Under the pieces are notes generated by a model that was not told where the DNA came from, did not search any database, and saw only the letters and a program-made list of their open reading frames with translations. From positions 1-22,752 of IMG/VR virus record IMGVR_UViG_3300033182_000555: 22,752 bases of DNA, one strand, 5' to 3'. The position numbers were made by a program, and so were the translations under genes. This document shows positions 4,824-13,554 of this stretch, in pieces (positions within the stretch are counted from its first letter, which is position 1; each line of letters starts with the position of its first letter). The DNA comes from a virus.

Positions 4824-6896
4824 TTATTTACTTGTTGCTATAAATACGCCATTCCAGTCTGCAGGCAAATCCTGTGTCTTCTGGAACTCGCAACGCTCAA
4901 TCCACATGTCATAATACGCATCCATTTTACCATCAAACTCGCCTTTGAGCTGTTTGCAAAAATGTATTGCCGTATCAAAACTTTGATTACGATAGCACTC
5001 GTGCATTTTATCGTGCTGTGGTTGTATAGCGGGCCAATTGGTGGTTTCCCAAGCATAGTCCCATGTGCTTAACACTGTGTAAATAGTGATGCCCACACTC
5101 TTGCCTTTTACTGCCAAATCATCCACTTTGAGATAAAAGAACTCGTCATAAGTTTCGTTGTAGGTATTTTCGCCTACTAAAAGTAAACAACCGTATTCTT
5201 TACACTTAGATTCAATTCGTGCGGCTGTGCTAACAGCGTCTCCCAAAACGTCATAGGAGTGTCTCGATGTAGAACCCATTTCCCCAAGATAGCCCAAGCC
5301 AGTATTAATGCCAGCCCCCATACCAATGGGTGGTCTGCCTTCCGCAGTAATTTTTTCATTGAAATCCTCCACTGCTGTTAACATATTTAATCCGGTCATA
5401 ACTGCTGAGTGTGCATGACGTGGGTCGTCATTGGGTGCATTGTGTACATGCATGCTGGCATCGCCTATGTATTTGATAATCATACCGTCTGCATCAAGCA
5501 CAGGTTTTGTAATAGCATCCATGTAACCGTTCATCAACTTCGTGAGTCCTTGTACATCATCACCAAAACTTTCGCCCAGTGGTGTAAAGCCACGTAGGTC
5601 TGAAAAACAAATACTGATTTCTCGCTTCATGCCTTCCTTGATCAGTGCAGGGTTTTGTTGAAGCATACGCACAACTGTAGGTGAGCAGTACCCTGCAAAC
5701 TGCTTTTCAATTTCCTGTTTAAGTTTGAACTGTATCCAAAAGTTATTAAAAGAACTTTGTGTGAATATCAAAAACGCACTTAGTGCAGGAAATGTAGCAT
5801 CAAATAAAAGAAGGTTAGCGGTATAAGAATGTACAGTATAATGCACAATAGACCCTATAATGCACACTGTAGTAAACAATCCTGCCCATATAGGTAACTT
5901 GTATATTGCTAATGCTATTAAAATCATAGCACACAGGGCGCCTAAGAGCTCGTATAACGCACTTAATTCATTTCGCTGTATGTTTGATCCATCTATAAAA
6001 TTTTGTAGCATGTGTGCTTGTATATGCTGTGGTAGAATGTTGCCTCTCGGTGTGGGTACCGGATTGGCAACACCTTCTGCACTTACACCCACAATAACAA
6101 ACTTTCCGCCCAAGTCAGGCAGTTCACTCGCATCTACATATTCGTATTCTTCAAATGTATTGTTGAAACGAATATAGGCTGTTCCATCAGGCTGTGTAAC
6201 TATAGGTTCGAAAGGAGGCACAGCAAATTCTTGTACACCTATTTCACTTGTCTTTAACATATAACTTGGCTTTTGCGTATATGTACGCAACATCTCAATA
6301 GCAAACGAAGGATATATTTTACCTTCTACATTTATTGCTAATGGATATGTTCTGGTTTGATTATCTGGTTGTGGTGCTGATGCTATAACACCAATGCCTT
6401 CAGCCGACTTTTCGAGTTCTGAAATATTTACGACGAGATTTGGCCAACTTAGCAAGAAGTCTGTCGGGCTCGAAGGTCCTATCGTTGCCGTTCCAATGTG
6501 AGGGCCTGAACTCCTCACTCCTCTGGCGGAGGGTGTCTGGCTTAAAACGACTCCGTTCTCGTTTATCCAACTCGATAAAATCGGATCGCCTCCAAACCTG
6601 TCCGGTTCCGGAAACATAAAATTCAGCCCTATAATGCCCCCATTCTGTGTTCTCAAATCGCTTATCAGTTGAGCAAAGTTCTGTCTCGGCCATGGCCATT
6701 GCCCCCATGTTTGTAAACTGCGTTCGCCAATGTTTATTACCACAACTTCGTTGCTTTTTTTAACTTCGTCTAATTGTTGTAAGTAATCAAATGTCTGTGA
6801 TCTCAGACTTTGAAGTGGTATAGGATCAGCAACTCTCAGAGCCGCAAGTAACACAATAGTGATGGCAACGGCCCATCCGCTGTATAACCATTTCAT
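4824..6896 (-). CDS. CHASE2-domain class III adenylate cyclase, membrane-bound
   Basis: 690 aa. Order: an N-terminal membrane segment (about 8-24), a CHASE2-type extracytoplasmic sensor (about 25-310; LRSQTFDYLQQL, VVVINIGERSL, WPWPR, GGKFVIVGVSAEG), membrane segments within about 313-380, a short helical linker, then a class III cyclase domain (about 425-610). Catalytic features: metal Asp433 (FSDLRGFT) and Asp479 (KYIGDA), adenine-selecting Lys475 and Asp549 (SYDVLGD), transition-state Arg560 and phosphate Lys598 (VKGKS). The usual transition-state Asn is Ser556 (GDAVSTAARIES). The expected reaction is ATP to cAMP at the inner membrane, gated by an external signal. A C-terminal tail of about 80 aa is unassigned. 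AATAAATA lies 5 nt before the ATG. Phage-borne copies are unusual; it was probably acquired from a bacterium. Activity is unproven because of Ser556. Confidence 0.9.
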   Translation of the reverse strand: MKWLYSGWAVAITIVLLAALRVADPIPLQSLRSQTFDYLQQLDEVKKSNEVVVINIGERSLQTWGQWPWPRQNFAQLISDLRTQNGGIIGLNFMFPEPDRFGGDPILSSWINENGVVLSQTPSARGVRSSGPHIGTATIGPSSPTDFLLSWPNLVVNISELEKSAEGIGVIASAPQPDNQTRTYPLAINVEGKIYPSFAIEMLRTYTQKPSYMLKTSEIGVQEFAVPPFEPIVTQPDGTAYIRFNNTFEEYEYVDASELPDLGGKFVIVGVSAEGVANPVPTPRGNILPQHIQAHMLQNFIDGSNIQRNELSALYELLGALCAMILIALAIYKLPIWAGLFTTVCIIGSIVHYTVHSYTANLLLFDATFPALSAFLIFTQSSFNNFWIQFKLKQEIEKQFAGYCSPTVVRMLQQNPALIKEGMKREISICFSDLRGFTPLGESFGDDVQGLTKLMNGYMDAITKPVLDADGMIIKYIGDASMHVHNAPNDDPRHAHSAVMTGLNMLTAVEDFNEKITAEGRPPIGMGAGINTGLGYLGEMGSTSRHSYDVLGDAVSTAARIESKCKEYGCLLLVGENTYNETYDEFFYLKVDDLAVKGKSVGITIYTVLSTWDYAWETTNWPAIQPQHDKMHECYRNQSFDTAIHFCKQLKGEFDGKMDAYYDMWIERCEFQKTQDLPADWNGVFIATSK

Positions 6897-6901
6897 ATTA
6901 A

Positions 6902-6909
6902 TATTTATT
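6902..6909 (-). promoter_or_regulatory. T4-type late promoter octamer AATAAATA
   Basis: AATAAATA overlaps the stop codon of the upstream 353-aa-frame gene. It is followed by 5 nt (TTAAT) and the cyclase ATG at 6896. There is no SD. Confidence 0.55.
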
Positions 6910-7954
6910 AGATTTTTGCTTTAGACATGCTTAACTGACAGAATACCTCTGACGGTCTAGCAGTGCTAGGAACAACACTGATACTAAACGACCCGTAATG
7001 GCCTTGTTGCTTGAGGGTTACAAAATCATCACCGGATACACACATGCCGGCTTTTAGATTAGGGAAGTTAATGCTTAACAATCCATCCCAACCATATTCT
7101 TTTTTGTATAAGTTAAAGTTGGCTTTACCGTATAACAACTCTGCTTGTTGCGGATCATCTTGCATAAATGCTTCAACAAATGGTGCTGGTTCTGAAAACA
7201 AATTACCGTACCATTCAGTTAATAATTTTTGTCTTTGCTGTTTCTTTTCAGGGTCACTGAGAGGTAAATCATTGGCTATGTATCTAACAAAGTTTCCTAT
7301 ACCTAATCCTTTGCTAGTTTTTAAATGTTCTTCTATACTAGGTAATTGTGACCAATATTTTGCGGCTACTTTATTACTAGGTCCGCCTTCGCCTAATCTA
7401 CCACCACCTGATGTTGTTTCTGCTTTTACTTCTAATTTTCCAAAACCTTCTACATCTAAATCGCCCTCAGATGTTCTCAATTGAATTTTATTACTGAGCA
7501 TTGCAAGAGCATACTCACCGGGACCTTTTTGCTTTTTACCTGCGCCTAGTTCTGCCATTGCTTGGAACACTTTTGTTGCTGTTTCATCTCCGGCAAAAAA
7601 GTCTCGCACACTGCTTACACCAGGTTTAACCAAAGTCGCAACATCTACAACATTGCCTGATTCTAGTTTGGTTAAAAAGTCATTAATTTTTTTGTAATCA
7701 ACATCAACATTAAAAATTATTGTGGTAAGTTTTTGTAAAAGTGGTTTTAAATTAAAATTGTCGTCTGAAACAGGAACTGCAAATGCAGTAGCAATTTTGT
7801 TTGAAAGTCCTTCGTTATTAAGAATTACATAAATTCTATCTAACAATTTAGCATCTTCTTTGTTTTCTGCTCGTAAGCCACTAACAGCCGCAATAATTTC
7901 TTTTTTTGCTGTTGCCGGATCTGCATATTCTGGTAAAAATTCTTTAGCTCTCAT
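6908..7954 (-). CDS. Unknown protein with a PD-(D/E)XK-like nuclease motif
   Basis: I chose the ATG at 7954 (MRAKEFLPEY, 348 aa) because it lies 5 nt after a GATAAATA octamer; an in-frame TTG at 7969 would add five residues. The N-terminal half looks helical. The centre has GPGEYALAM with Glu147, then Asp165 in SEGDLDVEG and Glu175-x-Lys177 in KLEVKAETTSGGGR. An acidic helix residue, then Asp, about nine residues, then E-x-K is the signature order of PD-(D/E)XK nuclease folds. This could be a DNA-processing enzyme or a virion protein with that fold; I have no family name for it. No signal peptide or membrane segment is seen. Its stop overlaps the promoter of the cyclase gene. Confidence 0.7.
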   Translation of the reverse strand: MRAKEFLPEYADPATAKKEIIAAVSGLRAENKEDAKLLDRIYVILNNEGLSNKIATAFAVPVSDDNFNLKPLLQKLTTIIFNVDVDYKKINDFLTKLESGNVVDVATLVKPGVSSVRDFFAGDETATKVFQAMAELGAGKKQKGPGEYALAMLSNKIQLRTSEGDLDVEGFGKLEVKAETTSGGGRLGEGGPSNKVAAKYWSQLPSIEEHLKTSKGLGIGNFVRYIANDLPLSDPEKKQQRQKLLTEWYGNLFSEPAPFVEAFMQDDPQQAELLYGKANFNLYKKEYGWDGLLSINFPNLKAGMCVSGDDFVTLKQQGHYGSFSISVVPSTARPSEVFCQLSMSKAKI

Positions 7955-7959
7955 ACAAC

Positions 7960-7967
7960 TATTTATC
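7960..7967 (-). promoter_or_regulatory. T4-type late promoter octamer GATAAATA
   Basis: GATAAATA is followed by 5 nt (GTTGT) and the ATG at 7954. It overlaps the stop codon of the upstream secreted-peptide gene. Confidence 0.55.
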
Positions 7968-8187
7968 AAATCCTTCTACAGTTGCGTTTGGCTCTTTGCG
8001 AAAATTCAAAATCGAATGTGATATCTGGTTCAGGTAGAGTTAGTATGAATTCGTTAGTTACACTATCTATAGTTTCTTGACTGTAAGGTGCATGAAAACC
8101 TATTTTAATTGCATGTTTTTGCTGAGGACTTAATGCAAGTGCGTTAATAGAAAAAAGCGACAGTATTAAAAATACTGCCGCTTTCAC
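7966..8187 (-). CDS. Small secreted protein, 73 aa
   Basis: It begins with GTG at 8187-8185, 10 nt after an AAGGAG SD. The first 18 residues are a classic signal peptide (MKAAVFLILSLFSINALA, cleavage before LSPQQ), leaving about 55 mature residues with an acidic, Pro/Phe-rich middle (LPEPDITFDFEF) and a basic end (RAKRNCRRI). I do not recognise it. It starts one base after the end of the -1 frame extension of the upstream lipoprotein gene, so its translation may depend on ribosomes that have shifted frame. A periplasmic role in lysis or envelope modification is only a guess. Confidence 0.65.
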   Translation of the reverse strand: MKAAVFLILSLFSINALALSPQQKHAIKIGFHAPYSQETIDSVTNEFILTLPEPDITFDFEFSQRAKRNCRRI

Positions 8188-8188
8188 C

Positions 8189-8305
8189 TTATTCGCACTC
8201 CTTTGGATTTTCAGAACAATATTTTTTAATTTGTTGTATTAACATTTTTATATCGCTCTCATTGCCTGCCTTACTCTCCTTGCGACGGGAGAATAGGCTT
8301 AGTCC
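8189..8305 (-). CDS. -1 frame extension of the lipoprotein (candidate programmed frameshift product)
   Basis: From the slippery site the -1 frame is open for 38 codons after the slip (GLSLFSRRKESK..., ending YCSENPKECE) and stops at TAA 8191-8189. That is one base before the GTG of the next gene. It has no own ATG/GTG start except an internal ATG 18 codons from the end with no good SD. The encoded segment is charged and helical-looking and has two Cys. Fused to residues 1-90 of the lipoprotein it would give a 128-aa protein. The open frame exactly fills an otherwise empty 110-nt gap, which supports it being coding. An unrecorded extra A in the A6 run would also fuse the frames. Confidence 0.55.
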   Translation of the reverse strand, partial: GLSLFSRRKESKAGNESDIKMLIQQIKKYCSENPKECE

Positions 8306-8311
8306 TTTTTT
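8268..8311 (-). promoter_or_regulatory. Candidate -1 programmed ribosomal frameshift signal
   Basis: In the lipoprotein frame (CCA AAA AAG GAC TAA) the heptamer A_AAA_AAG lies at 8311-8305. A 6-nt spacer follows (8304-8299, including the stop). Then comes a stem of 11 bp: 8298-8288 pairs with 8279-8268, with one bulged A at 8271, one G-T pair and an 8-nt loop CGTCGCAA. This is the classic arrangement of bacterial -1 signals such as dnaX. No T-run follows the stem, so it is not an intrinsic terminator. The loop and 3' arm contain an SD-like AAGGAG, so a translation-initiation role is an alternative. Confidence 0.6.
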
Positions 8312-8574
8312 GGAGCGTCTTGCAGTTCATCGGTTTGTTCATCGATTTCATCGCCTATAGTTGTAACAACACCTTGAGTTACCTCTGCTGTTGTTGCTAC
8401 TACATCAGACACATCTTCTAAAACTGCTCCACTTACTGTGCTAACAGCCTTAACAGATCCGTCTATAACGCCTGTTGTGAACTCTTTACCACCTTCAATC
8501 ACTGCTCCAACTGAGGCACATGACGGTAGTAAAAATATACCAAGGATTGCAAGAATACTGAGTGTACATCTCAT
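8299..8574 (-). CDS. Small outer-membrane-type lipoprotein, 91 aa
   Basis: The start is well supported by GGAG 6 nt before the ATG. Residues 1-18 form a type II signal peptide with lipobox LLPSC (lipidated Cys19). The mature part (about 72 aa) is rich in Val, Ala, Thr, Asp and Glu in an amphipathic, repeat-like pattern (GVIDGSVKAVSTVSGAVLEDVSDVV), ending acidic (DEIDEQTDELQDAPKKD). It may be an envelope-inserted helix or a spanin-like outer-membrane component, but I recognise no family. The last codons contain the slippery site, so a longer 128-aa form may be made. A late-promoter octamer (8640-8647) and two leader hairpins precede it. Confidence 0.8.
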   Translation of the reverse strand: MRCTLSILAILGIFLLPSCASVGAVIEGGKEFTTGVIDGSVKAVSTVSGAVLEDVSDVVATTAEVTQGVVTTIGDEIDEQTDELQDAPKKD

Positions 8575-8589
8575 ATTCTCTCCTTATAA

Positions 8590-8633
8590 AACAGTAAGCC
8601 AACTGCTATACTGTTGTAGGCTTCCTTGCCTAC
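8590..8633 (-). other. Two adjacent hairpins in the lipoprotein 5' leader
   Basis: On the minus strand, the first hairpin is GTAGGC-AAGGAA-GCCTAC (8633-8616, 6-bp stem). The second immediately follows: AACAGTA pairs with TACTGTT (8615-8609 with 8596-8590, 7 bp, 12-nt loop) and is followed by TTTAT and the SD. With the octamer at 8640-8647, the predicted transcript would start right at the first hairpin, which could protect the 5' end. A weak terminator for read-through from upstream is an alternative. Confidence 0.45.
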
Positions 8634-8941
8634 ATTATATATTTATCGACTATTCCAGCATGATCAAAAAATTCAGGTGCTGGCATTGGAGTGAATATGG
8701 GATCTGGATTTGAGTTGATTCTTATCATTTCAAATGTGTAGTGATCCATCATGTAACCACATTCTTCACAGAGATATACATAATAGGCTATCATTCCTAA
8801 CATCAGTGTCAAATAAAAGAAATAAGGAAATACCAGACTGACTTGTACATACAGCATGCCATATGCAATATGTAATCCGCCTCGCAGTCGTTGGGTGATG
8901 TATTTGTTGAACAGTTCGTCGAGTTTGTTAGGGTCGTCCAT
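8630..8941 (-). CDS. Small membrane protein, 103 aa
   Basis: It starts at the ATG at 8941 (a GTG just before it is also in frame), inside the end of the upstream 45-aa ORF, which suggests coupled translation. A hydrophobic stretch of about 30 residues (about 28-58: GMLYVQVSLVFPYFFYLTLMLGMIAYYVY) forms one or two membrane segments. A CEECGY motif follows, with three Cys-type/acidic residues close together, then a soluble tail of about 40 aa rich in Pro and Met. It is not recognised. The size and membrane topology would suit a holin or envelope modifier, but nothing specific supports that. The gene's last codons overlap the GATAAATA octamer. Confidence 0.6.
   Translation of the reverse strand: MDDPNKLDELFNKYITQRLRGGLHIAYGMLYVQVSLVFPYFFYLTLMLGMIAYYVYLCEECGYMMDHYTFEMIRINSNPDPIFTPMPAPEFFDHAGIVDKYIM
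8640..8647 (-). promoter_or_regulatory. T4-type late promoter octamer GATAAATA
   Basis: It lies inside the last codons of the 103-aa gene, about 66 nt upstream of the lipoprotein ATG. Unlike the N5-ATG cases, the gene it serves has a structured leader and a strong SD. Confidence 0.5.
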
Positions 8942-9065
8942 CACTGTGATACATGAGGTCGTATCCTATCTCGATACTGTGAACTGCTAATTGTATAATT
9001 GATATGGCTATCAGCAGTGTGAGCAACATAGCACAGATTTTAAGCCACTTGATCATATGTTTCAT
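8928..9065 (-). CDS. Small single-pass membrane peptide, 45 aa
   Basis: ATG at 9065-9063, stop TAA at 8930-8928. It begins MKHMIKWLK, followed by a hydrophobic helix (about 10-28: ICAMLLTLLIAISIIQLAV) and a short polar tail ending HSDGRP. The 3' end overlaps the start of the next gene by 14 bp. It sits directly behind a sigma70-like promoter, with the -10 hexamer ending 7 nt before the ATG, so its mRNA could be nearly leaderless. The peptide's layout (basic N-terminus, one membrane segment) is typical of small phage membrane effectors; function unknown. Confidence 0.5.
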   Translation of the reverse strand: MKHMIKWLKICAMLLTLLIAISIIQLAVHSIEIGYDLMYHSDGRP

Positions 9066-9080
9066 GTATTATATAATACA
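9065..9080. repeat. Perfect 16-bp palindrome TGTATTATATAATACA
   Basis: It covers the -10 hexamer of the sigma70-like promoter and runs to the ATG. It may be an operator for a dimeric repressor or simply a consequence of AT-rich sequence. Confidence 0.45.
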
Positions 9081-9101
9081 CGAAATGTATGTTTTTGTCA
9101 A
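9073..9101 (-). promoter_or_regulatory. Sigma70-type promoter TTGACA-N17-TATTAT
   Basis: The minus strand carries a perfect -35 (9101-9096), the optimal 17-nt spacer and a -10 with one mismatch (9078-9073). It starts inside the 37-nt gap after curlin-like 2. The predicted start lies at or just before the ATG of the 45-aa gene, so the downstream block could be read early by host polymerase. Confidence 0.6.
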
Positions 9102-9102
9102 C

Positions 9103-10014
9103 CTATTGACCTTGTGTTATTGATATTGAACAACCTCCTGCTGTTTGACAGTCTTGTGTGAGTGAGTATGATTGTGCTGTTCCACCTTGTTGAAGCATGT
9201 ATAATGTTGTAGCATACGAACCAGTTAGTGATACTGTGGCATTATGACCAGCACTTCCAATTTGTATCATATCAACATCATTGTAATCATTATTGATGGT
9301 TAGACTGAGTGACTTGTCTACATTGTTTTCTTGTCTTGTGTAAACATCATTGTAATCACCATAGATGTAAGTGATATTTGTATGTTCGTGTCCTGAGTTA
9401 TTAGATCGTTGACTTCCTAAAAATGTGTTGTTCGAGCCATGAATATCCAGTCGTGTAAAATGGCCACCATATTCATAATCGTCTATTGCTAATACTACAC
9501 CTCCACTTGTGACATGATATCCTTGATAAAAATCTACATCATTTGAATCTCCATATATATGAAATTCAAATCTATCGCCACCACATGTAGACTGATTACA
9601 TGTCTGTACAATGTTTAAATCATTATAATTACCATCTAAATCACCTCCCCAACTATACCCACTCCCCCATATAGTGGTGTAACCAACATAAGCACCATGG
9701 CCTTCTTGATAAATGTTTACATTATTTGTTGAACCGCCTACAGAAAAATCAACATCATTGTTGTATCCTATTTGTTGGATGTCCAATGAAAATGTAGCAC
9801 TGCTACTAGGATTTTTCACTGTGGTAGTGTTGTTATATCCTGCTTGTAGCAAATTTAAAGTTAAGTTGTCACCTTGTTGTTCTATGCTTATTTCGTTGTC
9901 GTTTGCCTGTGATGGTAAACTTAATAATAAAAACATACTCAATAAGGTATAACCAATCCATAACAATGGTGTATCACTGGGTTTCATATTTTTTAATTTT
10001 TTCTCTATGTTCAT
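9103..10014 (-). CDS. Curlin-like secreted repeat protein 2
   Basis: 303 aa. The ATG overlaps the FecR-gene stop (ATGA), supporting this start. The signal peptide has a long polar start and a hydrophobic core (about 17-33), with cleavage after SQA (about 37). The mature protein opens DNEISIEQQGDNLTLNLLQAGYNN, matching the Q-x-G-(x)-N pattern of curlin (CsgA/CsgB) amyloid repeats. Degenerate repeats continue (QQIGYNNDVDF, DLDGNYNDLNI, IYGDSNDVDF, IYGDYNDVYTR, INNDYNDVDMIQIG), ending LQQGGTAQSYSL and ITQGQ. Likely exported through CsgG and assembled at the cell surface. Two Cys pairs (TCNQSTC, DCQTAGGC) are unlike classical curlins. It is paralogous to curlin-like 1 in the N-terminal repeat. 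Confidence 0.8.
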   Translation of the reverse strand: MNIEKKLKNMKPSDTPLLWIGYTLLSMFLLLSLPSQANDNEISIEQQGDNLTLNLLQAGYNNTTTVKNPSSSATFSLDIQQIGYNNDVDFSVGGSTNNVNIYQEGHGAYVGYTTIWGSGYSWGGDLDGNYNDLNIVQTCNQSTCGGDRFEFHIYGDSNDVDFYQGYHVTSGGVVLAIDDYEYGGHFTRLDIHGSNNTFLGSQRSNNSGHEHTNITYIYGDYNDVYTRQENNVDKSLSLTINNDYNDVDMIQIGSAGHNATVSLTGSYATTLYMLQQGGTAQSYSLTQDCQTAGGCSISITQGQ

Positions 10015-11177
10015 TCTTGTACTATAGTAATATATATTCCGCTACAGGAGTTTAAGCATATAAGACTTTCTCCCAAATCGGTATCAATTATATTTATCCT
10101 TGCTTCGGATCCTTTTGCAATCTTTAAACTCACATAATTATTACTTTCTCTTAACATCAATACACTGTCTGCAACATCTGGTATAATATTAAATTGATTA
10201 TCTTGCTGTAATCCAAAATTCCTATCTACTAATCTATCTGGGCCTGTTTGCTCTTCTCTTACTGCAAGTGCATCTGCTTCTTCTATTATGTCTAATAAAT
10301 CTGTTAAAAAATCAACTTCTAAAAAATTGATGTCCAATTCTGTGAACTCTAGTTCTTTTTCTGTTTGCGAATCTAGATCTTCGTATTCTAAGAAATCGAT
10401 ATCAAGCCCATTAAAATCTAATAGTCCACCGTCACCTTTTAACTCTTCTACTTGTTTGTTTTTGGCTTCAGTAATTTCTTTTGGTTCACTCACAATAAAC
10501 ATATTATCTATTTGATTGATATCCAAGTTTACCAGTGTAACCGGATTTGTTGGTGCTGTTTCAAACGTGCTTACCATTACTGCCTGATATGCTTCTTCTA
10601 ATAATACAGTGCCACCATCATTAGTAACACTTATGCTACCGCTAGGCCTACATCCTTCTTCCAGTTTAACTTTATCGTCACAATTTGCATCTGGTAACAA
10701 TATAACTAAACTTCTACCCAGTTCATCCACTGTGGTAGTAAAATCTGTTCCCCTAATACCTATACTGGCAGTAGGAGTTTGTATTTGAATATTTTCTTTT
10801 GGTACTAGACCCAATCTGCCTGTAGCAAACCTTGCTGTACCTTGTGCAAAATTTAGTGCCATTTTGCTGTTACTTGGGTTAGGGTCGTAAACATACTCGT
10901 TTATTTCGATTATTGTGTGTTCTGTTAGAGAAACTTGCGTATCGTCTATAAATTTTATTTTTAAGCGGCCGTTTTCGGTTTCTACATTATCTAAACTCTG
11001 AACTCCTGCATTTAGTTCTGCTAATAACTGTTCTCCAGAAGTTCTTGTAATGTTACCCGGTTTCCCGCTTTGTTCAAAAACGCCGCCGATTTGAGCGGCG
11101 GCGTACATATTACTTGAAACAGTTAGTACTACCGCTAACAAAAACTTAATCTTTTTGCTGAATACTAACTGACGCAT
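10011..11177 (-). CDS. Secreted FecR-domain protein
   Basis: 388 aa from the ATG at 11177 (an in-frame GTG at 11183 is possible). A basic start and hydrophobic core give a signal peptide ending near SNMYAAA. The FecR-like beta domain spans about 60-165 and includes NGRLKIKFIDDTQVSLTEHT, NFAQGTARFATGRL and IQTPTASIGIRGTDFTT. An insertion with two Cys (DANCDDKVKLEEGC) and a long acidic, Leu/Asp-rich region (about 240-315) follow, then a C-terminal part with another Cys pair (LICLNSC). FecR domains bind partners in the periplasm or on surfaces; here the protein has no anti-sigma transmembrane context. It may organise or nucleate the curlin-like proteins, but this is inference. Its 5' end overlaps the curlin-like 1 gene by 32 nt and its 3' end overlaps curlin-like 2 (ATGA). 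Confidence 0.85.
   Translation of the reverse strand: MRQLVFSKKIKFLLAVVLTVSSNMYAAAQIGGVFEQSGKPGNITRTSGEQLLAELNAGVQSLDNVETENGRLKIKFIDDTQVSLTEHTIIEINEYVYDPNPSNSKMALNFAQGTARFATGRLGLVPKENIQIQTPTASIGIRGTDFTTTVDELGRSLVILLPDANCDDKVKLEEGCRPSGSISVTNDGGTVLLEEAYQAVMVSTFETAPTNPVTLVNLDINQIDNMFIVSEPKEITEAKNKQVEELKGDGGLLDFNGLDIDFLEYEDLDSQTEKELEFTELDINFLEVDFLTDLLDIIEEADALAVREEQTGPDRLVDRNFGLQQDNQFNIIPDVADSVLMLRESNNYVSLKIAKGSEARINIIDTDLGESLICLNSCSGIYITIVQE
10091..10098 (-). promoter_or_regulatory. Possible internal late promoter octamer GATAAATA
   Basis: It lies inside the FecR gene, 76 nt before the ATG of curlin-like 2. It could give extra transcription of that gene, but chance occurrence in AT-rich coding sequence is likely. 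Confidence 0.25.
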
Positions 11178-11949
11178 TTTCACTGTCTATGTCTAAATTT
11201 ATAACGCCTTTACATGCTGGTGTACAAGTTGATGTCATGCTTTGAGTAAACTGGAAATCTCCGTCACTGCCATCTAGCACAACTGTTAAACTATGTCCAT
11301 CATTGCCTGTTTGTGAGGTTGCAAAAGCATTGTCGCTTCCTGTGATATCAAAGTTCCAAACTGCATTAGATACATCTATTGCTATGCCTGACATAGAACT
11401 TGATCCTGTGCAGTTAGTTCCGCATGTGTCACCTACTCCGGCGGCGGCCCAAACCTTGTTATTAGTAAAACTGTTTGTAAAATCATTTCTATCACCTAGT
11501 ATTACTAAATCAAAATTGAGATACTCCGCTGTGGAAGAACCGCCCACATCCATATCAAAAATGTTTGAACTTCCTTGTATATCAACCAACATATCTGCGT
11601 AATCAGAGCTACCTGTAGCACCAAAGTTCAAATCCCAAACGTTAGAGTCGCCTAACTGATAAAAATCTAAAACTGTACTACCGCTACCATCTAAAACCCA
11701 ACTACCAAACATGTCATTGTTATTACCGTCTTGAATTATATCTATGATTAAATTCGAACCAGTAATTGTTAAATCTGTCGACTGTGTACTGTCTCCTGAC
11801 AATGTATTTCCATATCCTGCTTGTAAAATTGTCAATGTAAGATTGTCACCAGTTTGATCTAATAACACTTCGTTATCATCGGCAATAACATTCAATGATA
11901 TGAACGTAAAAGCGAAGACATTTAGTAAAAATTTATTTATTGTCTTCAT
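11146..11949 (-). CDS. Curlin-like secreted repeat protein 1
   Basis: 267 aa, with a signal peptide (cleavage after VIA, residue 23). The mature start DNEVLLDQTGDNLTLTILQAGYGN has the curlin Q-x-G-x-N spacing and is nearly the same as in curlin-like 2. Further degenerate units follow (IIDIIQDGNNNDMF, LDFYQLGDSNVWDL, VDIQGSSNIFDM, LVILGDRNDF, DITGSDNAFATSQTG, FQFTQSMT), ending SENASVSIQQKD. Probably a surface amyloid or amyloid-like fibre subunit exported by CsgG. Cys pairs DTCGTNC and TCTPAC occur in positions similar to its paralogue. The start overlaps the csgG stop region by 17 nt, so it is translationally coupled. Repeat degeneracy is greater than in E. coli CsgA, so fibre formation is unproven. 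Confidence 0.8.
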   Translation of the reverse strand: MKTINKFLLNVFAFTFISLNVIADDNEVLLDQTGDNLTLTILQAGYGNTLSGDSTQSTDLTITGSNLIIDIIQDGNNNDMFGSWVLDGSGSTVLDFYQLGDSNVWDLNFGATGSSDYADMLVDIQGSSNIFDMDVGGSSTAEYLNFDLVILGDRNDFTNSFTNNKVWAAAGVGDTCGTNCTGSSSMSGIAIDVSNAVWNFDITGSDNAFATSQTGNDGHSLTVVLDGSDGDFQFTQSMTSTCTPACKGVINLDIDSENASVSIQQKD

Positions 11950-12991
11950 TTATTTCTCCAATATTGGTGTCAGACTCTGTTGGATTATCATCTGACGTAT
12001 TATCTAGAAGAATTCTCTTCCATAAAGGATTATTTGATTGAGTGTTTGTAGTGTCATCCGCGTCCGAAAGCACTATGTTATTGTTACCTTTTAAACTGAA
12101 CCAATATGCTTGTTCTTGTTCAAGCACTAAATCATCCCAGTTTTCAGGGTAAACAATTTTCCAAAAACCTCTTTCATCACCTTGATATATAAGTTCTAAC
12201 ACTGCGGCTTCGATTGCTGATCTAACTGCATATGTTACACTTTCATTCTGTGTCATTCCGCTCTCTAGCTCTAACAACTGAGTATCCATATCTAAGAATC
12301 TAAATACATCTCCTGCTGTTCCGCTACTTAATACGGTCTTGCTTGTTTGGACATTTAATATCACTTCACCGGTGAGTGTGCTTACCGCTCTAAGTGAAAT
12401 TGTTACACTGTCCCTTCGATACTGATTTGTTAAACCAATACCTAAATATCTTGCACCCACGCCTCCTGTTTCTATGTTGGTATCGTATCCTACAACACCT
12501 CCTTCTAATATCATTCCTGCAAACAACATGGGTTGCAATTCTTGAAAATCTTCTAAGCCTGCTTGTTTTGCGGCTTCTGCTCGAGTACTTCGAACTATTT
12601 GCCTTTCTCTAACTAGATTATCTAATCCTAATCCTCTTTCTACAACTCTAAACCAAGTACCCTTTGGATCTGAACCAGCACCTGCGGCTTTTAGTGCATC
12701 TACTAATAAACTTTTTGCATCTTGCGTAACTGCTGTTGAAAAAGTTGCTACCCCATCTTGGCTTTTACGTTGGCCGGTACCGTCTACAAAATTATAAACT
12801 GCAACCACAGGCATTGTTTCTGCAGGAGGTAAGTATCTTAATTTTTGATAAGTAGGCAATTCTACTTTCATAGGTTCGGTAATACACTCTAAATAATTAG
12901 ATTCGCAGAATTTATCACCAGGAATTGCAACACTTGCACAACCAGTAAATAAAATACTACACAACGATGCTAGGGATATTTGTTTTAACAT
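11933..12991 (-). CDS. csgG: CsgG-like curli secretion channel (outer-membrane lipoprotein)
   Basis: 352 aa, with lipobox LFTGC (lipidated Cys18). The CsgG core is clear: YLPPAETMPVVAVYNFVDGTGQ, FSTAVTQDAKSLLVDALK, WFRVVERGLGLDNLVRERQIVR, LFAGMILEGGVVGYDTN, TGGVGARYLGIG, NQYRRDSVTISLRAVSTLTGEVI, TSKTVLS, GDVFRFLD, AVRSAIEAAVLELI and ERGFWK. CsgG forms a nonameric outer-membrane pore that secretes unfolded curlin. The C-terminus is about 75 aa longer than in E. coli, Asp/Asn/Thr-rich and probably disordered. In the constriction loop, Phe56 of E. coli aligns with Phe, but Asn55 becomes Thr and Tyr51 is not kept. The ATG overlaps the csgF stop (TAATG). No csgE is seen. Confidence 0.95.
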   Translation of the reverse strand: MLKQISLASLCSILFTGCASVAIPGDKFCESNYLECITEPMKVELPTYQKLRYLPPAETMPVVAVYNFVDGTGQRKSQDGVATFSTAVTQDAKSLLVDALKAAGAGSDPKGTWFRVVERGLGLDNLVRERQIVRSTRAEAAKQAGLEDFQELQPMLFAGMILEGGVVGYDTNIETGGVGARYLGIGLTNQYRRDSVTISLRAVSTLTGEVILNVQTSKTVLSSGTAGDVFRFLDMDTQLLELESGMTQNESVTYAVRSAIEAAVLELIYQGDERGFWKIVYPENWDDLVLEQEQAYWFSLKGNNNIVLSDADDTTNTQSNNPLWKRILLDNTSDDNPTESDTNIGEINEDNK

Positions 12992-13554
12992 TAGCCGCCT
13001 GATATATTTCCTATGCCAATTGGTATTTCTATTTCAGTTATAGTACCATCTGGGTCTACAATAGTCAACTTAATAACTTCTAATCCATCAGCATTAGTAA
13101 GTATTTGGTATGACACATTATTACCTTCAATAGTAAAAGCACCGTCAGTTGATCCTGTACAAGTAACTACAGTTGCAGGATCACAAAACATGCTATCGAC
13201 TAATCCTTTAGAAATTTGTGAGTAAATTCTACTTTCTAAGTTTCTTATAAACTTGTTTATAGTTGAGTTTTCTTCAGCCCTTTCTGCGGCTTTGAGTGCC
13301 GCTTCTATATCACTTTTAATTTTATCTTTACGACTTTTTTCTTGATTTTCTATAGTTAAATAATGTGCGCCTGTGCCTACACCACTGAAACTTGGATTTT
13401 TAAATTTATGCACTATTTCAGATGCCATTGTCAAAGGACTCATAAAAAGTAATCCTAAAAACAATCCAAACACAAATGCTTTCAATAAATCTTTTCCTTT
13501 CCATATTCCTGGGCCAATTTGACTTTTGAGTAATGCCCAATCTTTGCTATTCAT
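12991..13554 (-). CDS. csgF: CsgF-like curli assembly factor
   Basis: 187 aa. GGAG lies 8 nt before the ATG. After a polar N-region of about 25 residues and a hydrophobic segment (FVFGLFLGLLFM), cleavage is expected after TMA (residue 44). The mature start SEIVHKFKNPSFSGVGTGAHYL matches the E. coli CsgF N-terminus (FQFRNPNFGGNPNNGAFLL), the part that inserts into the CsgG pore. The segment IRNLESRIYSQISKGLVD matches the CsgF helix, and the C-terminal beta region (IEGNNVSYQI, IKLTIVDPDGTITEIEIP) fits as well. An extra helical stretch (about 70-105) and a Cys pair (FCDPATVVTC) are additions. It should cap CsgG and couple secretion to fibre assembly. It is coupled to csgG. Confidence 0.9.
   Translation of the reverse strand: MNSKDWALLKSQIGPGIWKGKDLLKAFVFGLFLGLLFMSPLTMASEIVHKFKNPSFSGVGTGAHYLTIENQEKSRKDKIKSDIEAALKAAERAEENSTINKFIRNLESRIYSQISKGLVDSMFCDPATVVTCTGSTDGAFTIEGNNVSYQILTNADGLEVIKLTIVDPDGTITEIEIPIGIGNISGG

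Follow-up and report, generated by a model that had tools for sequence, protein, structure and literature searches.

We report a phage lipoprotein gene whose 3' end very probably carries a programmed -1 ribosomal frameshift. The gene lies on a 22,752-base IMG/VR fragment, analyzed over its whole length and referred to here as the window. Comparison of homologous loci supports a slippery site, a spacer, a stem-loop, protein coding in the -1 frame, evolutionary maintenance of the arrangement and repeated swapping of the heptamer. The heptamer, 6-nt spacer, 11-bp stem and open -1 frame that a previous sequence-only reading of this DNA had proposed are all present in the window (Table 1).

Table 1. 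Elements of the candidate frameshift site in the window.
Feature	Coordinates	Strand	Basis
Zero-frame lipoprotein gene, 91 aa	8299-8574	-	Open reading frame; stop TAA at 8301-8299
Slippery heptamer A_AAA_AAG	8305-8311	-	In zero-frame register; A_AAA_AAG or G_GGA_AAG in 99/107 loci
6-nt spacer GACTAA, zero-frame stop inside	8299-8304	-	Sequence; first stem begins at +6 or +7, that is 6 or 7 nt past the heptamer, in 18/29 clusters
Putative stimulatory stem-loop, 11 bp, one bulge	8268-8298	-	Fold; covariation among 10 distinct relatives
Predicted -1 frame extension, 38 codons, stop at 8191-8189	8189-8304	-	Purifying selection in the -1 frame

The window gene ends in ..GAC GCT CCA AAA AAG GAC TAA. 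Upon a -1 slip, reading would restart at the last base of the heptamer (8305) and proceed through GLSLFSRRKESKAGNESDIKMLIQQIKKYCSENPKECE, whose C-terminal end is YCSENPKECE, to a TAA that lies one base from the GTG of the next gene at 8187. The predicted long product therefore counts 90 + 38 = 128 amino acids, in agreement with the earlier proposal of 91-aa and 128-aa proteins with 90 residues in common. Predicted junction peptides of the long form are ..DAPKKGLSLF.. and ..DAPKKGLSLFSR. At the RNA level, positions 8315-8255 fold at -17.5 kcal/mol (z -2.3), a value equalled by 3 of 200 shuffles. By inspection, the family consists of putative bacterial-type lipoproteins with a signal peptide and a lipobox ending in an invariant Cys. 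The window protein carries the lipobox-like sequence LPSC, and Cys19 and most of CASVGAVIEGGK are invariant in 19 aligned members.

IMG/VR was scanned with either the lipoprotein or the -1 extension as query, yielding about 300 loci that a profile search and de-duplication brought to 107 distinct loci. The extension-only query recovered divergent members missed by the lipoprotein query, and in nearly all of these the lipoprotein gene again closes with a slippery heptamer, its frame offset by one from that of the extension. An in-register heptamer located 0 or 1 codon before the zero-frame stop, together with a -1 extension, is found in 99 of the 107 loci: 82 have A_AAA_AAG (52 directly before the stop and 30 one codon before) and 17 have G_GGA_AAG, all directly before the stop. 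The extensions of these 99 loci are 31-74 aa long with a C-x3-P-x2-C motif at or near their end. Of 310 distinct open reading frames of at least 150 aa from the same loci, only 1 shows a heptamer of this kind within 0-1 codons of the stop, and the arrangement in the homologues thus exceeds chance. AAG invariably forms the last codon of the heptamer, even though 79% of the lysine codons in these genes are AAA. A second in-register A_AAA_AAG in the window (13694-13688, minus strand), located close to where a 101-aa gene ends and followed by about 40 open -1 codons with an ATGA overlap, is kept in 1 of 34 relatives; we attribute it to chance and it serves as a negative control.

Homopolymers are error-prone in assemblies, and the site could represent a continuous long gene that lost a base in its A run, whether as a broken gene or through a sequencing error. 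The probability of this explanation is practically negligible: many metagenomes contributed the 99 distinct loci that share this frame relation, which use two different heptamers and conserve the zero-frame stop, and a continuous long gene is seen in none of the 107 loci. The A run itself, about which the sequence-only reading had kept a reservation, recurs across many independent contigs and is genuine.

The alignment of homologous loci that had been proposed as a check finds the heptamer kept, or exchanged for another efficient one, throughout the 99 loci. On the lipoprotein tree, which is built on few columns and leaves many forks unresolved, the distribution of the G heptamer needs about seven changes, with at least three forced by well-supported branches. 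The two heptamers have been interchanged repeatedly, a pattern best explained by selection for ribosomal slippage. We also considered transcriptional slippage, in which RNA polymerase adds or drops an A within the run so that mixed mRNAs encode both proteins. In its favor, runs of six or seven A are present at the site in 82 loci, and transcriptional slippage is known at A runs longer than 7 (PMC3711429). Against it, the run is short. Moreover, the 17 loci that use G_GGA_AAG have no run above three and carry the same -1 extension; the lack of a long homopolymer for RNA polymerase in this heptamer argues against polymerase slippage, and the recurrent stem at a 6-7 nt spacing suits a ribosome. 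Transcriptional slippage is therefore a very unlikely source of the two proteins.

To characterize this stem, RNA folding was scanned in 29 clusters (identity below 70%), with 36-nt windows placed around the heptamer. The mean folding z reaches -2.4 at offset +5 from the heptamer and is mostly 0 to -0.5 away from it, where the lowest value is -0.76 at +60. Stems of differing sequence recur in the homologues at one 6-7 nt spacing, bearing out the stem predicted for the window. Among relatives in the same group as the window, pairing is retained in 97.3% of cells, and both sides have changed in three pairs; the covariation score is reached by none of 500 shuffles, the structure having been derived from one of these sequences. 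Another group of 24 loci has a common long-range stem of 10-12 bp whose arm begins exactly at +6: there, GCTCATTCTTT pairs with an arm beyond a 35-68 nt loop, with compensating changes. In the LLEAMM group the stem is weak by single-sequence folding (z about -1). The scan, the covariation and the long-range stem together place an RNA structure downstream of the heptamer, within the spacing of about 5-8 nt expected for a bacterial -1 site; it is weaker in the LLEAMM group. A Shine-Dalgarno (SD)-like motif upstream of the heptamer occurs in 22.5% of 80 loci versus 4.4% at control positions, with none evident in the window; as a general part of the signal, an SD-like upstream stimulator is not clearly supported.

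Across 209 pairs of extension DNAs with 70-99% identity, the -1 frame has a dN/dS of 0.26; over 31 disjoint pairs the value is 0.19. The same DNA scored in the zero frame gives 1.02. The excess of synonymous changes has a binomial p of 2e-35 over these 31 pairs, which are disjoint but not picked on a tree. All 84 distinct extension DNAs contain stops in both other frames. This pattern of substitution indicates protein-level evolution of the extension, with purifying selection confined to the -1 frame. A Met codon precedes the motif in 57 of the 84 distinct extensions, 25 of them with an SD-like sequence upstream, and in the window an ATG opens MLIQQIKKYCSENPKECE. Internal initiation could thus add a product in some loci. 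That the -1 frame is instead a separate small gene translated from its own internal start is extremely improbable: 14 of the 99 loci lack an ATG, GTG or TTG before the motif, and the heptamer and stem would be left unexplained. In addition, constraint is as strong in the heptamer-proximal half of the extension as in the distal one (0.21 and 0.18, respectively), and an internal start would not explain this.

Counting against the frameshift reading, 4 of the 107 loci are altogether without an extension. These loci (L023, L025, L026 and L050) also lack the heptamer, a joint absence that speaks for the frameshift reading, and have a terminator-like hairpin after the stop. Close kin of L023-L026, namely L027-L029, have both heptamer and extension, so site and extension were lost together there. 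Four other loci (L125, L127, L242 and L252) have GAA AAG AAG TAR in place of the heptamer, which is replaced by GAAAAGAAG ahead of the stop. Their extension has the same motif but lies in the +1 (equivalently -2) frame, and their stem (GCTCATTCTCT/AGAGGATGAGC) stands at +5, one base closer. Changes in this extension number 6 synonymous and 5 non-synonymous on 33 and 141 sites, and 10 and 10 on 34 and 143 sites, so that it too looks constrained by purifying selection. The four loci sit in two places on the tree, a distribution that may be due to recombination. One possibility for the mechanism is that the P-site tRNA-Lys shifts from AAG two bases back onto AAA. To our knowledge, a +1/-2 site of the GAA_AAG_AAG_TAR kind is not known from the literature. 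A broader proposal, that frameshifting sets the ratio of plain to tailed lipoprotein and that recoding changed direction within the family, is plausible but falls a little short of probable; if true, a -1 site would have given rise to one that shifts by +1 or -2.

According to the preferred reading, a -1 ribosomal frameshift, ribosomes on the lipoprotein mRNA would meet A_AAA_AAG while a stem-loop stands 6 nt downstream. Some of them would re-pair one base back and read the 38-codon extension, and the remaining ribosomes would terminate one codon later to give the 91-aa lipoprotein. The 128-aa form would keep this lipoprotein's anchor and helix and add a C-terminal helix containing C-x3-P-x2-C. 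Structure prediction gives a helical extension, with high confidence in its C-terminal half, and a helical zero-frame protein with low confidence (pLDDT 60). Both forms would share the lipid anchor, and slippage would fix their ratio. Slippage in vivo is inferred, as is how often it would occur. The lipoprotein is presumably located in the outer membrane, a disulfide probably forms within the extension, and the ratio of short to long form likely matters. Our guess is that the long form has a binding partner in the periplasm, which its extra helix could dock, for example the DUF5658-like product of the neighboring gene.

In 45 of 103 loci, the gene that follows codes for a secreted protein of about 160 aa that is weakly DUF5658-like (below the Pfam cut-off). 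DUF5658-like neighbors carry YCDNNPPEC or, often, YCDNNPELC (e.g., L121:2139-2603 and L130:2101-2577), and the spacing in both equals the C-x3-P-x2-C of the extension's YCSENPKEC; a shared partner is a lead and no more. In the window, the downstream 73-aa gene (7966-8187, minus strand), previously described as encoding a secreted protein, consists of the N- and C-terminal parts of the approximately 160-aa DUF5658-like protein of relatives with the middle missing, apparently an in-frame internal deletion. A strong intrinsic-terminator-like hairpin (8185-8153, minus strand) covers the start and signal-peptide codons of this gene, and L001-L003 have a similar hairpin of different sequence at the same place. 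The suggestion that frameshifting couples translation to the next gene is plausible in the window's sub-group only, where the extension stop abuts or overlaps the next start (e.g., L001-L008); elsewhere a terminator follows the extension, so coupling is not the general purpose.

The lipoprotein gene is single-copy on each of 12 long contigs, six of which carry a T4-type major capsid protein; the remaining contigs may be fragments. Its neighbors in the window are a curlin-like gene on one side and a CHASE2-cyclase gene on the other, within a CsgF-CsgG-curlin-FecR-curlin-cyclase operon. The type VIII secretion set of CsgF, CsgG and two curlin-like proteins, with FecR and the CHASE2 nucleotide cyclase, occupies 4824-13554 on the minus strand. 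In another large group, genes for a UvsX-like recombinase, a DNA polymerase and a helicase (named by inspection) are found close to the lipoprotein gene, whose role is thus not tied to curli. Queries with four divergent members found no relatives in 50,697 phage records (tblastn), and scanning 84,980 species genomes of bacteria and archaea twice also found none. A weak match in HTVC008M (E 1e-4) falls inside a 687-aa frame at the tape-measure gene and was taken as chance. Pfam and PHROGs gave weak chance matches only, none credible; together with the lipoprotein signal, this led us to reject identity as a tail assembly chaperone.

The pelagimyophages HTVC008M and Melnitz have a curli-related (type VIII secretion) operon (PMC7029224). 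The window shares this gene order for CsgF, CsgG, the curlin-like genes, FecR and the CHASE2-cyclase. Unlike in these two isolates, where the lipoprotein gene was not found, the window operon includes it; in other lineages the gene is placed elsewhere. The pelagimyophage paper (PMC7029224) makes no mention of a lipoprotein or a frameshift. The sequence-only reading had known of no frameshift in a lipoprotein gene, and a literature search likewise found no phage lipoprotein case in the available text of a frameshifting review and tool papers or in other openly accessible journal articles.

The family is a further widespread phage gene family apparently dependent on frameshifting, here in uncultured T4-like marine phages, and ordinary annotation overlooks the C-terminal quarter to third of its proteins. 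With about 100 natural variants comprising two interchangeable heptamers, many unrelated stems at one spacing, joint losses and an apparent change of direction, it offers a natural experiment on the evolution of recoding signals.

Most of what is known of frameshifting in tailed phages comes from tail assembly chaperone genes, and G_GGA_AAG is phage lambda's own G/GT slippery site. Like lambda G/GT and other tail chaperones, the family is a phage gene in which the -1 product is a C-terminal extension, and 17 of its loci share the lambda heptamer. Unlike the chaperones, to which it has no homology, it encodes a membrane-targeted lipoprotein, has a stem and adjoins the curli/cyclase operon or replication genes. 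The closest parallel to the window signal is E. coli dnaX (tau/gamma), in which A_AAA_AAG and a downstream hairpin give two products with a common N-terminus (PMC3711429). The heptamer and hairpin recur here, and two such products are predicted. The family departs from dnaX in that the predicted -1 product exceeds the zero-frame product in length, the stop of the zero frame falls 0-1 codon past the heptamer, an SD-like stimulator upstream does not appear to be general and a phage lipoprotein is encoded. Taken together, the signal is canonical, of the dnaX or lambda G-T type, and what appears new is the gene family and the class of product, pointing to a known mechanism in a new setting.
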